A stretch of 64,000 nucleotides of DNA, taken from contig JAFDGA010000002.1 of the NCBI GenBank assembly GCA_019309545.1, forward strand, positions 1-64,000, given 5' to 3'. The notes below the pieces were generated by a model. That model was given only the letters and a program-made list of their open reading frames with translations, searched no databases and was not told the origin of the DNA. The stretch is from Deltaproteobacteria bacterium (GTDB lineage Bacteria; Desulfobacterota; Desulfobaccia; Desulfobaccales; Desulfobaccaceae). The position numbers and the translations under genes were made by a program. This document shows, piece by piece, positions 39,147 through 57,949 of the stretch (positions are counted from its first letter, which is position 1; the number at the start of each line of letters is the position of its first letter).

Positions 39147-39179
39147 AAGGGGTAGACCAGCCTGTCGGCCCCTTTTTTT
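39147..39179 (+). terminator. Rho-independent terminator of tatD-yggS
   Basis: AAGGGG (39147-39152) pairs with CCCCTT (39169-39174) around a GC-rich loop, followed by a run of seven T. A TATAAT box (39182-39187) for the next transcript follows directly. Confidence 0.8.
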
Positions 39180-39234
39180 GATATAATATTATACTAAGAT
39201 CAATCCGATATTAATCACAAGGGCTTTAACCAGT

Positions 39235-40239
39235 ATGCCTGGGACAAAATACCGCCCCGGTACCAAAGTCGGCCTGACCACCACCATTCCGGTGGAGATC
39301 ATCTTAGCCGCGGGGTTGGTGCCGGTCGATCTTAATAACCTGTTCATCACTTCGGATCAGGCCTACCGTTGGGTGGCCCAGGCCGAAGAGGCTGGATTTC
39401 CTCGCACCGTCTGTGCCTGGATCAAGGGCATTTATGCCACCTTATTGGACCACCCTGAAATTCCTGTAGTGGTCGCCGTGACGCAGGGGGATTGCTCCAA
39501 TACCCACGCCCTGATGGAGCTATTGCAGAATCAGGGCCGCGACCTAGTCACTTTTGAATTCCCCTTTTCCCGGGACCGGCGGTTGCTGGCCCAGCAGATC
39601 GAGCAGTTAATGGCCCGCTTCGGGGTCGAGTGGCCGCAGGTCCGGCAGTTCCAGGCTACGTTAACCCCGGTGCGCCAGGATTTGCATACCCTAGATCGAC
39701 TTACCTGGCAGGAGGGCGTGGTCAGCGGCCGGGAGAATTTTCAATTCTTGATTGCCAGTTCGGATTTTAACTCGGATGTTGCCGGATTTGCCGAGCAATT
39801 GACTACCTTCCTGGAGGAGGCCCGCCGTCGGCCGCGGCGATCGGCTCTGGTCCGGTTGGGGTTAATCGGCATTCCACCGATCTTTAATGATCTTTTTGAG
39901 TATCTCTCAAGTCTGGGGGCCGAAGTGGTGTTTAACGAAATCCCCCGGCAGTTCAGCATGCCGTTTGCCGAGGGGGATCTGGTTGAACAATACTTGGCTT
40001 ATACTTATCCATATGATGTGTTTGCCCGTATAAATGATATTGCCGAGGCCATTAAAGTGCGGCAACTGGATGGCCTGATCCACTACACCCAGAATTTCTG
40101 TTTCCGGCAGACCCAGGACCTGTTGCTCCGCCAGCGTCTGGCGGTGCCGATGCTGACCATTGAAGGCGACCGGCCCACCGCCCTGGACCACCGCACCCGC
40201 ATGCGCTTGGAGGGCTTTGTTGATGTCCTGCGCCGCTGA
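39235..40239 (+). CDS. 2-hydroxyacyl-CoA dehydratase D-family protein (HgdB/BcrC-like)
   Basis: A 334-residue protein of the HGD-D family. It starts VGLTTTIPVEIILAAGLVPVDLNN as in BcrB/BcrC and HgdB subunits and contains exactly three Cys: C60 (RTVCAWIKG), C87 (TQGDCSNTH) and C289 (TQNFCFRQ), the pattern of ligands for one 4Fe-4S cluster. Family members reduce or dehydrate acyl-CoA with an ATP-driven electron, or are double-cubane cluster proteins of unknown substrate. Only one dehydratase subunit is encoded here, next to its activator, so its partner subunit and substrate are unknown. Confidence 0.85.
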   Translation: MPGTKYRPGTKVGLTTTIPVEIILAAGLVPVDLNNLFITSDQAYRWVAQAEEAGFPRTVCAWIKGIYATLLDHPEIPVVVAVTQGDCSNTHALMELLQNQGRDLVTFEFPFSRDRRLLAQQIEQLMARFGVEWPQVRQFQATLTPVRQDLHTLDRLTWQEGVVSGRENFQFLIASSDFNSDVAGFAEQLTTFLEEARRRPRRSALVRLGLIGIPPIFNDLFEYLSSLGAEVVFNEIPRQFSMPFAEGDLVEQYLAYTYPYDVFARINDIAEAIKVRQLDGLIHYTQNFCFRQTQDLLLRQRLAVPMLTIEGDRPTALDHRTRMRLEGFVDVLRR

Positions 40240-41056
40240 GATATTAACACGCGCCCCGCTGGTGGGTCTGGATTTTGGCAGCCGCTTTGTCAAGCTGGCC
40301 TGTACCACTGATATGGTAACCTTTGTCAAGCGTAAGTTGGATACCCTTACCTTTTATCGGGATTATTTTCGCCGGACCCCGGAGCAGGTGGAAATAGACT
40401 GGCCGCGTCTGGGGCTGGAGCCTCCGGCCTGCCTGGTAGCCACCGGTTATGGCAAGCATCTATTGCAGGCTTATCTCCCCACCATTACTGAAATCCGGGC
40501 CCATTTTCTGGGGGCTAGGAAGCAGACCGGTCGCAATGATTTTATTTTACTGGAAATCGGCGGCCAAGACACCAAAGTGCTCTATGTTAAGGAAGGGCGG
40601 GTCTTTGATTTTCTCAGTAATGACCGCTGTGCCGCCGGCACCGGCCGTTATCTGGAAAATATGGCCCGCTTTCTAAAAATGTCGTGGCAGGAATTCACCT
40701 CTTACAGCCAGGAACCGGTAACCATCTCCAATACCTGTGCCATTTTTGGCGAGACCGAGTTGATCGGCCATCTGCTGGATGGGGTGCCGCTGCCCCGCAT
40801 CGCCGCCGGAGTCAACGATTCAGTGGCCCGGCGGGCCCTGGCCATGCTCCGCCGCTATCCCTGTCGCACTCTGGTTTTTGTCGGCGGGGTAGCCCGCAAC
40901 CATGCGGTGGTCAACTGCCTGCGCCAGCGGGGCGACTATCAGGTGATCATTCCGCCGGATCCCCAGTTTAACGGCGCCCTGGGCTGTTGCCTGGAGGCCC
41001 GCAAAAGTATGGAGCGCGTCGGCGAGACCAAAAACTTTAGTTACCTAGCCAAATAA
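40223..41056 (+). CDS. 2-hydroxyacyl-CoA dehydratase activator (BadF/BcrA ATPase)
   Basis: A 277-residue ASKHA-fold ATPase with VGLDFGSRFVKLA at the start, ILLEIGGQDTKVL in the phosphate-binding region, and the two Cys of the homodimer-bridging 4Fe-4S cluster, C136 (NDRCAAGTGR) and C172 (NTCAIFGETE). GVARNHAVVNCL closes the nucleotide site. It is the archerase that fires one electron into the neighbouring dehydratase-type protein. The start ATG overlaps that gene by 17 bases. Confidence 0.9.
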   Translation: MSCAAEILTRAPLVGLDFGSRFVKLACTTDMVTFVKRKLDTLTFYRDYFRRTPEQVEIDWPRLGLEPPACLVATGYGKHLLQAYLPTITEIRAHFLGARKQTGRNDFILLEIGGQDTKVLYVKEGRVFDFLSNDRCAAGTGRYLENMARFLKMSWQEFTSYSQEPVTISNTCAIFGETELIGHLLDGVPLPRIAAGVNDSVARRALAMLRRYPCRTLVFVGGVARNHAVVNCLRQRGDYQVIIPPDPQFNGALGCCLEARKSMERVGETKNFSYLAK

Positions 41057-41060
41057 CCGC

Positions 41061-43061
41061 ATGGAAATTCAAATATTAAATGATCTGATCGTCGTTCTTG
41101 CCCTGTCCATTGCGGTGCTGTTCGTCTGCACTCAGATCGGGGTGCCGGTAATTATCGGCTTTGTCCTCACCGGCATCTTGTCCGGACCGCACGTTTTAGG
41201 GTTGGTCAAAGCAGTATCCGAAGTAGAAATTCTAGCCGAGATCGGGGTGATTTTATTACTGTTCGCTATTGGCGTGGAGTTTTCCTTTGCCAATCTGCTG
41301 CAAATCCGCAAATCGGTGCTGCTGGCCGGTCCCTTGCAGGTGGCGGCTACTGCCCTGGCCGGTCTGGCCCTAGCCCTGCAGATGGGCAAGTCCCTGGGCG
41401 AAGCCATTTTTATCGGCTTTTTATTATCCCTGAGCAGCACCGCCATTGTCCTCAAGATCTTCCAGGAACGGGCCGAAATCGATAGTCCGCACGGCCGCAC
41501 CAGTCTGGGCATGTTGATTTTCCAGGACATCATCATCGTGCCGATGATGTTGTTAACCCCATTACTGGCCGGACAGACACAACATTTGAGTGCCGATCTG
41601 CTGACGCTGGGAGTGAAAAGCTTAGTCATCATCCTGTTGGTGATCGTCAGCGCCAAATTTATTGTTCCGCAAGTATTATACCAGATTGCCCGGACCCGCA
41701 GTCGGGAGCTTTTCCTCTTGGTGATAGTAGTGATTTGCTTTGCGGTAGCCTGGTTAACCGCCAACGCCGGCCTTTCTCTGGCCTTAGGGGCTTTTTTGGC
41801 CGGACTGATCATCTCCGAAACCGAATACAGCCATCAGGCCCTGGGCAATATTCTGCCGTTCCGCGACGTTTTTTCCAGTTTCTTTTTTATCTCCATTGGC
41901 ATGCTCCTGGACGTTGGTTTTCTCCTCCAGCACCCAGGGCTGATCGCTTTGCTCACCATAGGGGCTTTAACCTTAAAATCGCTGGTTTCGGCCTTAACCG
42001 CCATTGTCCTGAGATTTCCCCTGCGGACCGCCATCTTAATCGGTCTGGCGCTTAGTCAGGTGGGAGAATTTTCTTTTATCTTATCCAAGGTCGGCATCCA
42101 GCAAGGTATTTTTTCCAGCGACACTTATCAACTTTTCCTGGATGTGGCCATCCTTACCATGGTGACCACCCCGGTCATTATGGCTTTCGCGCCACGGATT
42201 GCCGAATTACTCTTGCGGCTGCCCTGGCCCCCCAGGTTAAGGTCCGGTTCTTATTTTGTAAAAAAGGTCGGGGAGCCGGAAAAGAGAGACCATCTGATTA
42301 TTATCGGTTTCGGCATCAATGGCCGAAATCTGGCCCGCGCCGCCAATGTGGGCGGGGTGCCCTATGTGATTATTGAAATGAACCCGGAAACCGTCAAAAC
42401 TGAAAGAGCCCGGGGCGAACCGATCTATTTCGGCGATGCCACCCAGGAAGAAATACTCCGGTTGGCCAATATTAAAGAGGCCCGAATCGTAGTAGTGGCG
42501 ATCAACGACCCGGCCGCCACCCGGCGCATCACCACAATCGCCCGCCAGCTCAATGCCAACGTGCATATCATCGTCCGGACCCGCTATATCCAAGAAGTCC
42601 AGCCGTTATATGAGCTAGGGGCCAATGAAGTGGTCCCCGAAGAATTTGAAACATCATTAGAAATCTTCGTGCTGGTGTTGAAGAAATATCTGGTGCCGCG
42701 CGAACAGATTGAAAAACTCATCACCGAGGTGCGGGCTAATGGTTATAAAGTCTTGCGCGGCTTTACCGATGACCTGGCCGCTTTTGTCAATCTAAAACAT
42801 TATCTGCATGATTATGAAATTAATACCGTCAGCCTGGAGGAGAGGTCACCTTTGGCGGGAAAATCGTTGGCGCAGGTGGAATTGCGCAAGAAATATGGCA
42901 TTACTGTGCTGGCGGTGCGACGCGATGGCCAGATGCTGGCCAATCCCGAGCCGGACATGGAGCTGGAGGGCAATGATCTGTTGATCATCTTGGGCTCCCC
43001 GCGTGATATTGCCCACTATAATTATTTATTTAAAAATCCGGACGGAAAAGTGGAAAATTAA
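41061..43061 (+). CDS. Kef/CPA2-type monovalent cation:proton antiporter
   Basis: A 666-residue protein. Residues about 1-385 are a CPA2 Na/H exchanger domain of 12-13 membrane helices (GVPVIIGFVLTGILSGPHVLG, LSSTAIVLKIFQERAEI, LALGAFLAGLIISETEYSHQ). Then comes a TrkA-N domain (LIIIGFGINGRNLARAANVGGVPYVIIEM) and a C-terminal TrkA-C domain. It resembles KefB/KefC-type K+ efflux antiporters gated by ligand. It begins five bases after the activator gene and precedes a Zn-ribbon miniprotein. Confidence 0.92.
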   Translation: MEIQILNDLIVVLALSIAVLFVCTQIGVPVIIGFVLTGILSGPHVLGLVKAVSEVEILAEIGVILLLFAIGVEFSFANLLQIRKSVLLAGPLQVAATALAGLALALQMGKSLGEAIFIGFLLSLSSTAIVLKIFQERAEIDSPHGRTSLGMLIFQDIIIVPMMLLTPLLAGQTQHLSADLLTLGVKSLVIILLVIVSAKFIVPQVLYQIARTRSRELFLLVIVVICFAVAWLTANAGLSLALGAFLAGLIISETEYSHQALGNILPFRDVFSSFFFISIGMLLDVGFLLQHPGLIALLTIGALTLKSLVSALTAIVLRFPLRTAILIGLALSQVGEFSFILSKVGIQQGIFSSDTYQLFLDVAILTMVTTPVIMAFAPRIAELLLRLPWPPRLRSGSYFVKKVGEPEKRDHLIIIGFGINGRNLARAANVGGVPYVIIEMNPETVKTERARGEPIYFGDATQEEILRLANIKEARIVVVAINDPAATRRITTIARQLNANVHIIVRTRYIQEVQPLYELGANEVVPEEFETSLEIFVLVLKKYLVPREQIEKLITEVRANGYKVLRGFTDDLAAFVNLKHYLHDYEINTVSLEERSPLAGKSLAQVELRKKYGITVLAVRRDGQMLANPEPDMELEGNDLLIILGSPRDIAHYNYLFKNPDGKVEN

Positions 43062-43445: not shown

Positions 43446-44801
43446 ATGAAAAATGTGATGATCATTGCCGGTTCAGATCCCAGTGCCGGGGCCGGGGTGC
43501 AGCAGGACCTGAAGGTGGCCACCCTATTGGGCGCCTATGGCCTGACCGTGGTGACCGCCCTTACCGTGCAGAACACCATGGGGCTGCAGGCCATGCATCC
43601 GGTGGCGGCCTTGGTGGTCGCCGACCAACTGGAGGCAGTCCTGGGAGATATTCGGGTGGACGCGGTAAAAATCGGGATGCTGGCTAATGAGGATATTGTC
43701 CGGGTGGTCGCCGCCAAACTGCGGGAAGCAGAGGTACCCATCGTTATCTTAGACCCGGTGCTGGCAGCCACTGACGGCAGCCCCTTGCTGGCACCGGTCG
43801 GGGTAGAGGTCCTCAAAGAGGAATTGCTGCCTTTGGCCACCCTGGTCACCCCCAATTTGGCCGAAGCCGCCAGCCTTACCGGGCTCGAGGTCCATGATGT
43901 GGCCGGGATGGAGGCCGCGGCCCAAGCTTTGCACCAACAGGGTGCCCAATGGGTGCTGGTCACCGGCGGGCATTTGCCGGGGGAGCCGGTGGATGTCCTC
44001 TTTGATGGGGTTAATTGTTACCGCTTACCGGGCGTGCGTCAGTCCCAAACGCATACCCATGGCAGTGGCTGCGCCCTCGCCACGGCTTTGGCCACTATGC
44101 TGGCCCAAGGACTGGCCTTGCCGGAGGCGGTAAATCAGGCCCGTGAGCTGGTGGCGCAGGCCATTATCTATGGACTGTCTTTGGGGCGGGGCCGGGGGCC
44201 GGTCAATCCCTACGCGCCCTTTGCCCGGGAGTTGGACCGTTATCGCGTGCTGCAGCAACTGGCGGCCGCGGCCTCGTGGCTCCAGGCCGGGGGCATCGAA
44301 ACCCTGATTCCCGAGGTCCAGAGCAATTTAGGTTACGCCACGCTTTTCGCTGCAGGCCCTTCAGATGTCGCCGCCTTTCCAGGACGCATCCTAAAAGGCC
44401 CCCAGGGACTGATCATTCCCCGCGCGCCTGAGTTCGGGGCCTCCCGTCATATTGCTGCGGTGATCCTGACCGCGCTCCGCACCCATCCCCAGCTCCGGGC
44501 CGCCATGAATATCCGTTTTTTTGAAGAAGTGGAGCGGCTAGCGCCGTTGCTCCATTTTAAGGTGGCCAGCTTTGACCGGTCCCACGAACCGCCTGATATT
44601 AAAGCCAAAGAAGGCAGTACCCTGGCCTGGGGGGTGGCCTCGGTACTGAAGCCGGGGGAACCGGCCGCAGATCTCATTTATGACCGAGGCGAGTGGGGCA
44701 AGGAACCGATGATTCGGGTCTTAGGTCCAGATCCAATCAGCGTCGCCGAAAAGGTCCTTGCCCTCAACCAGGCTCTGCAGGCCGCGGGGATGGCCGGTTA
44801 A
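43446..44801 (+). CDS. thiD: ThiD-ThiN fusion: HMP-P kinase / thiamine-phosphate synthase
   Basis: A 451-residue two-domain protein. Residues about 1-260 are ThiD (IIAGSDPSAGAGVQQDLK, VDAVKIGMLANEDIV, TVLDPVLAATDG-like block and THTHGSGCALATALATMLA), which phosphorylates hydroxymethylpyrimidine. Residues about 280-448 are ThiN (LIPEVQSNLGYA, EFGASRHIAAVILTAL, EGSTLAWGVASVL), the non-homologous replacement of ThiE that joins HMP-PP and thiazole phosphate. ThiDN fusions are best known from archaea and are less common in bacteria. Short gap to the upstream repeats; likely its own transcript. Confidence 0.93.
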   Translation: MKNVMIIAGSDPSAGAGVQQDLKVATLLGAYGLTVVTALTVQNTMGLQAMHPVAALVVADQLEAVLGDIRVDAVKIGMLANEDIVRVVAAKLREAEVPIVILDPVLAATDGSPLLAPVGVEVLKEELLPLATLVTPNLAEAASLTGLEVHDVAGMEAAAQALHQQGAQWVLVTGGHLPGEPVDVLFDGVNCYRLPGVRQSQTHTHGSGCALATALATMLAQGLALPEAVNQARELVAQAIIYGLSLGRGRGPVNPYAPFARELDRYRVLQQLAAAASWLQAGGIETLIPEVQSNLGYATLFAAGPSDVAAFPGRILKGPQGLIIPRAPEFGASRHIAAVILTALRTHPQLRAAMNIRFFEEVERLAPLLHFKVASFDRSHEPPDIKAKEGSTLAWGVASVLKPGEPAADLIYDRGEWGKEPMIRVLGPDPISVAEKVLALNQALQAAGMAG

Positions 44802-57679: not shown

Positions 57680-57949
57680 CTGGCCGTGCTAGACGGGGAG
57701 CTAGCGGTGCCCTGTAACCCGAAAACCGCTTTAGCGGGGTTGAATCCCCTCTCAGAGGATTGCAGCGTTGTTCGGCATCTGTGGACAAAGGCGGGGGGTT
57801 GGACCCCACGCAACGGACGCTTGTGAACCCCGTCAGGTCCGGGAGGAAGCAGCGGTAAGCAAGGCAGTGCGTGTCGTGGCGGATGCTAATCCGAAACCCC
57901 TTTGCCACAGCCCGAGCAATGGCGAGTTCGATGGAGGGTGCACGGCCAG
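57680..57949 (+). ncRNA. ffs: Signal recognition particle RNA, long form
   Basis: About 270 bases closed by CTGGCCGTGC (57680-57689) pairing with GCACGGCCAG (57940-57949). The S-domain core GTCAGGTCCGGGAGGAAGC (57833-57850) is the universal SRP RNA motif that binds Ffh, and a long stem (57780-57796 with 57897-57909) leads to it. The 5' part (GTGCTAGACGGGGAG, GCGGTGCCCTGTA) adds hairpins as in the long, Alu-containing bacterial SRP RNAs, not the about 110-base type of enterobacteria. It lies between the HU gene and pyrG. Confidence 0.92.

Follow-up and report, generated by a model that had tools for sequence, protein, structure and literature searches.

An HGD-D protein and activase pair from Desulfobaccales forms its own branch of the BCR/HAD superfamily, with a predicted single-cubane archerase function

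The examined window is a stretch of 64,000 nucleotides from a Desulfobaccaceae genome (assembly GCA_019309545.1, contig JAFDGA010000002.1, positions 1 to 64,000). It carries a gene for an HGD-D family protein, followed by an overlapping activase gene and by an antiporter gene that we count outside the system. The features identified at this locus, all on the forward strand, are the following:

39235..40239 (+): HGD-D family protein, 334 aa, predicted catalytic, cluster-binding component (ORF, Pfam PF06050, alignment, AlphaFold)
39412..39414 (+): Cys60 codon, first predicted cluster ligand, CAWIKGIY motif (invariant in 57 members)
39493..39495 (+): Cys87 codon, second predicted cluster ligand, GDCSNTH motif (invariant; universal HGD-D column)
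40099..40101 (+): Cys289 codon, third predicted cluster ligand, HYxQxFCxRQ motif (invariant; universal HGD-D column)
40223..41056 (+): activase (archerase), 277 aa, ASKHA ATPase with a predicted subunit-bridging [4Fe-4S] cluster (ORF, Pfam, NCBIfam)
40628..40630 (+): activase Cys136 codon, NDxCAAGTGR motif (invariant, 22 relatives)
40736..40738 (+): activase Cys172 codon, TCxIFGETE motif (invariant, 22 relatives)
41061..43061 (+): Kef/CPA2 monovalent cation:proton antiporter with TrkA_N and TrkA_C domains, 4 bp downstream

The first-pass annotation of this DNA had described a 334-residue HGD-D protein with exactly three cysteines, at positions 60, 87 and 289, and the ORF translation agrees. 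Pfam PF06050 (HGD-D) was matched over its full length, spanning residues 16-332 (E 1.5e-31; 110.7 bits against a gathering threshold of 28.4), and the same model was matched by 57/57 family members. For the activase, the mechanical ORF list starts at TTG 40160, but the likely start is ATG 40223, which gives 277 aa and a 17 nt overlap with the HGD-D stop. This start puts the bridging cysteines at 136 and 172, as had been annotated, within the canonical motifs NDRCAAGTGR and SNTCAIFGETE, respectively. Both cysteines and the ATPase motifs are invariant across 22 activase relatives. The protein matched PF01869 (BcrAD_BadFG, E 2.1e-31) and exceeded the cut-off of the NCBIfam model for acyl-CoA dehydratase activases (TIGR00241, CoA_E_activ); the solved activases nearest to it were those of HadBC, HgdAB, MbdQ and DCCP.

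In the gap between yggS and the HGD-D gene (39148-39180), a GC-rich inverted repeat followed by a T-run was recognised by eye, unlisted by the consensus scan, and is likely a terminator separating the HGD-activase unit from yggS. RNA-family and promoter scans over the gene-pair region returned nothing relevant. Elsewhere in the window, Rfam identified a Bacteria_large_SRP RNA (57684-57945, +; 153.9 bits), an SRP RNA of the large type in this Desulfobacterota genome, and we observed a ThiD fused to a ThiN-type thiamine-phosphate synthase domain (43446-44801, +).

The gene pair is not idiosyncratic to this genome, as it belongs to a widespread conserved orthologous family. With one genome taken for each species, a pattern scan gave 350 candidate stretches. 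A relative is encoded in 291 of them, and the best 80 of these 291 were kept for follow-up. Since family members from several phyla share 48-87% identity with the window protein, the HGD-D ORF is conserved far beyond chance. The family is present in Desulfobacterota, Bacillota, Armatimonadota and Actinomycetota, with hosts among Desulfobaccales, Desulfarculales, Geobacter, Geomonas, Desulfotomaculia, Thermincola, Armatimonadota, WS1 and Actinomycetota such as Solincola, many of the hosts being strict anaerobes. It was matched in 28 of 40 relatives, some near and some more remote, and in 60 of 198 genomes of the window's own phylum, nearly always in single copy. Our literature search found no paper on this HGD-D clade and no function assigned to the family.

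Cys60, Cys87 and Cys289 are invariant in the 57 aligned members, while every other cysteine varies. We compared them with 25 DCCP-type, 7 beta-type (HadC/BcrC/BzdN-like) and 5 alpha-type (HadB/BcrB-like) sequences from the family's host genomes, 20 of them typed by NCBIfam and the rest assigned by similarity. The three columns hold Cys in every DCCP and every alpha sequence, as well as in 6 of the 7 beta sequences. DCCP has three more ligands, Cys38, Cys273 and Cys304 (L149 numbering), which match Cys36, 263 and 293 of BzdN (PMC11971306). In the columns of these ligands, all 24 members aligned with the comparators have Thr15, a gap and Tyr260, and both Thr15 and Tyr260 are invariant in the 57-member set. 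Since the triad is kept and the additional DCCP ligands are replaced by non-Cys residues, one [4Fe-4S] cluster per chain, with an open iron, would be expected, and a double cubane is ruled out for the family as far as the sequence goes.

The AlphaFold model of the 334-aa protein (mean pLDDT 94.1, pTM 0.90) has the BCR/HAD fold, and all 19 confident Foldseek matches were HadBC, DCCP, BzdNO or MbdNO chains, with HadC at the first rank (E 3e-15). In an IQ-TREE phylogeny of 61 sequences, the family formed one clade (support 100/99, stem of 3.3 changes per column) outside the DCCP, beta and alpha groups; the relations between these groups are uncertain because of long branches among the beta comparators, with the unity of the family unaffected. 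The phylogenetic comparison that had been proposed, against dehydratases, benzoyl-CoA reductases and double-cubane proteins, hence gives the window protein a clade of its own.

By profile, the nearest family was DCCP (PDB 7yyl, E 6.8e-15), and hhalign probabilities were 99.9% for DCCP, 99.6% for beta subunits and 98.0% for alpha subunits. The relation to double-cubane proteins suggested in the first-pass annotation therefore stands as profile proximity, but not as cluster type, as the double-cubane ligands are all missing. Moreover, the window protein scored only 33.4 bits for NF040772 (DCCP) against a cut-off of 350, which true DCCP comparators exceed with 385-525 bits. A double-cubane reductase, or a degenerate DCCP with DCCP-like small-molecule reduction, would explain the profile match, but it is very improbable given the non-Cys ligand columns in every member, the low score, the separate clade and the coexistence of true DCCPs with the family in some hosts.

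Another candidate is a divergent homodimeric 2-hydroxyacyl-CoA dehydratase or aryl-CoA reductase whose CoA thioester is made by enzymes encoded elsewhere. The superfamily fold and the activase are common to both, and the conserved N-terminal TTTIPVE resembles alpha (substrate-binding) subunits at the Thr15 column. The window protein had no match, even at E 0.1, among the dehydratase and benzoyl-CoA reductase NCBIfam models, nor to TIGR02260, TIGR02263, TIGR03190 or TIGR03191, whereas the comparators do match such models (L181 with 645.6 bits for BcrC). At 334 aa, it is also shorter than alpha subunits, which have roughly 400-440 aa. According to the alignment, the column of the BzdO catalytic Glu65 is Asn34 in 57/57 members and the position of BzdO His131 (second Cys + 3) is Thr90 in 56 of 57, replacements which speak against benzoyl-CoA-type chemistry. 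Together with the separate clade, and with conserved neighbourhoods in which no acyl-CoA genes were recognised (see below), these points make a CoA-dependent enzyme of this kind unlikely. The earlier description of the pair as an uncharacterised archerase-type system is in line with the missing NCBIfam matches and the separate clade.

The first-pass annotation had also remarked that no second dehydratase-type subunit is adjacent, and had allowed for a known enzyme with its partner gene elsewhere. None was found beside the pair, and the whole assembly of the source genome, which is 99% complete, contains a single PF06050 match, the protein itself falling outside the known enzyme groups. Single PF06050 matches were also found in genomes G004, G008, G054, G085, G089 and G177, among which are several complete ones with the family. 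G089, which is 100% complete, encodes the family protein and a downstream activase (46% identity), but no other PF06050 protein, no DUF2229/PlsA protein and no homologue of the f11 partner described below. At least one complete genome is thus devoid of any other HGD-type protein, and the family protein must function there with no second subunit of this type. This argues for a homo-oligomer, like that of DCCP.

In the f11 lineage, the gene directly upstream of the HGD gene, which overlaps or abuts it (22-nt overlap in G109), encodes a DUF2229/HGD-like protein of 366 aa that has conserved Cys motifs of its own. This neighbour counts against a universal homo-oligomer, since it hints at heteromers there, and f11 may hold a heteromeric offshoot of the system. 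At the f11 loci L163:136-2246 (22-nt overlap), L162, L164 and L161, radical SAM and ATP-grasp genes were seen adjoining.

It could be argued from f11 that the window protein forms a heterodimer with a distant HGD-like protein of the DUF2229/PlsA type, encoded elsewhere or fused in a multidomain protein, and the source genome does have a 1404-aa PlsA/GeR-like protein with such a domain, the only protein found there with the f11 partner as query. We consider this quite unlikely. A homologue of the f11 partner is missing from eleven of the family's host genomes, the family protein is the only HGD-type protein of G089, and whether a genome of the phylum encodes a PlsA-type protein does not depend on whether it has the family (PF09989 in 49/60 genomes with the family vs 104/138 without, p 0.36, 198 genomes). 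The same independence led us to reject a link between the family and ether lipids. The PlsA/GeR-like protein itself (1395-1404 aa; source genome G000, C4:99836-103960; L169:1795-5979, minus strand) has two activase domains, DUF2229 and an HGD-like C-terminus, an architecture that suggests ether lipids or plasmalogens. Gene trios resembling a split PlsA, in which the gene for a DUF2229/HGD-like protein is accompanied by those for a DUF2229 protein and an activase, were also observed at L167:3631-6594 and L168:5046-8057.

We examined the position of the activase at 81 loci. It was adjacent to the HGD gene at 36 and 1.2-4.5 kb downstream at 5; at 35 it was absent from the at least 1.2 kb of downstream sequence examined, and at the remaining 5 the sequence was too short. 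Positional pairing is therefore not obligatory. Hosts without a neighbouring activase carry other activases elsewhere in the genome, so sharing of an activase is possible. In Desulforudis and Desulfopertinax, whose HGD genes have no activase alongside, an O-methyltransferase-like protein is encoded beside a stand-alone activase (L156:3313-5142 and L155:6853-8657); as a functional clue, this neighbour gave no usable lead.

The conserved neighbourhoods are of a housekeeping kind. In Bacillota, the pair lies within a murI-rph-rdgB-yfcE block (gene names read from the sequence, not all library-confirmed), in several delta lineages a phosphatase and a radical SAM gene adjoin it (names likewise read from the sequence), and in Desulfobaccales it follows tatD and yggS. 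No CoA ligase or acyl-CoA genes were recognised among the conserved neighbours inspected, which we count in favour of a non-CoA archerase. The neighbour of the window pair is, as had been annotated, a Kef-type antiporter, but apart from the window, only a genome of the same genus has Kef behind the pair, with thiD-thiN or other genes in this place in other Desulfobaccales. This neighbour is genus-specific and uninformative, and a link to electrophile detoxification was accordingly set aside.

These housekeeping contexts and the strict-anaerobe distribution would also suit an electron-transfer or reactivation device for another metalloenzyme, such as a super-reductase for a corrinoid protein, CODH or similar, all the more as beta-type HGD-D subunits are electron relays. 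A weak association with CODH/ACS was indeed detected (46/60 genomes with the family vs 78/138 without; odds ratio 2.5, p 0.01, uncorrected for ancestry). We rejected this link, as it is broken in G054 and G089, both 100% complete, which have the family but no CODH/ACS match. A reactivation device seems decidedly improbable, given these two genomes, the absence of a conserved adjoining target gene and the many invariant residues around the Cys triad in the 57-member alignment, which look active-site-like.

On balance we favour, with moderate confidence, a homo-oligomeric, single-cubane, ATP-driven archerase reductase acting on a small, probably non-acyl-CoA substrate. In such a system, the activase dimer would hydrolyse ATP and drive single low-potential electrons, presumably drawn from ferredoxin, into the HGD-D protein. 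The latter would be a homo-oligomer, most likely a homodimer, each chain of which would hold one [4Fe-4S] cluster on Cys60, Cys87 and Cys289. The fourth iron of the cluster would be open to water, hydroxide, sulfide or substrate, and at this iron a small metabolite would be reduced or undergo a reductive elimination. Judging from the gene context and the missing catalytic residues, the substrate is probably a small housekeeping-type metabolite and not a CoA thioester. More tentatively, and with rather less confidence, the pair may represent a third BCR/HAD architecture, a single-cubane homodimer with its activase, for an undescribed ATP-driven reduction of a core metabolite across several anaerobic phyla.

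Among the known systems, DCCP with DCCP-R of Carboxydothermus hydrogenoformans (PDB 6ENO, 7YYL; NF040772) is similar in having a single type of HGD-D subunit, one activase and no acyl-CoA genes, besides the closest profile and the common Cys triad; DCCP is a homodimer (PMC11971306). It differs by six cluster cysteines for an [8Fe-9S] cluster, against three in the window family, by the length of its comparators (mostly 388-468 aa against 334 aa) and by its separate clade. (R)-2-hydroxyisocaproyl-CoA dehydratase, HadBC with HadI (PDB 3O3M, 4EHT), has the same fold and three Cys per subunit, and its activase aligned to the window activase with 136 bits. Unlike the window system, whose genome has no second subunit, it is an alpha-beta heterodimer with a CoA substrate, and the window protein had no HadB or HadC NCBIfam match and fell in a clade separate from both.

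The class I benzoyl-CoA reductases BzdNO and MbdNO (PDB 8S02, 9GAI) also have the fold, with a TM-score of 0.82 to 9g87_B, and differ as heterodimers with two activase-type subunits and with a double cubane in BzdN. The Cys triad of BzdO, where exactly three such cysteines bind one [4Fe-4S]-OH2 cluster (PMC11971306), is the best analogue for the cluster predicted in the window protein, although the catalytic Glu65 and His131 of BzdO are not conserved in the family. PlsA/GeR-type ether-lipid reductases (two PF01869 domains, DUF2229 and an HGD-like domain) have activase and HGD-like domains in common with the pair, but in one 1400-aa chain with no usable sequence similarity to the window protein and with an uncorrelated presence. 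The window system would therefore resemble DCCP in organisation and BzdO/HadB in cluster type, without belonging to either group.

The reductions catalysed by ATP-driven archerases include some of the lowest in potential in biology. The normal pattern in the superfamily is two different enzyme subunits or a larger double cluster, and the window pair, with its predicted function, stands on a branch of its own. In published models of superfamily evolution, homodimers with double cubanes come first and give way to heterodimers that have one simple cubane (PMC11971306). If the favoured reading is true, a conserved homomeric member with simple cubanes only would be a distinct evolutionary route or an intermediate. 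With 334 aa and only three cysteines, the window protein is an unusually clean object for spectroscopy. As housekeeping-like contexts recur in Bacillota, Desulfobacterota, Armatimonadota and Actinomycetota, the family may serve a function of anaerobes in these four phyla.
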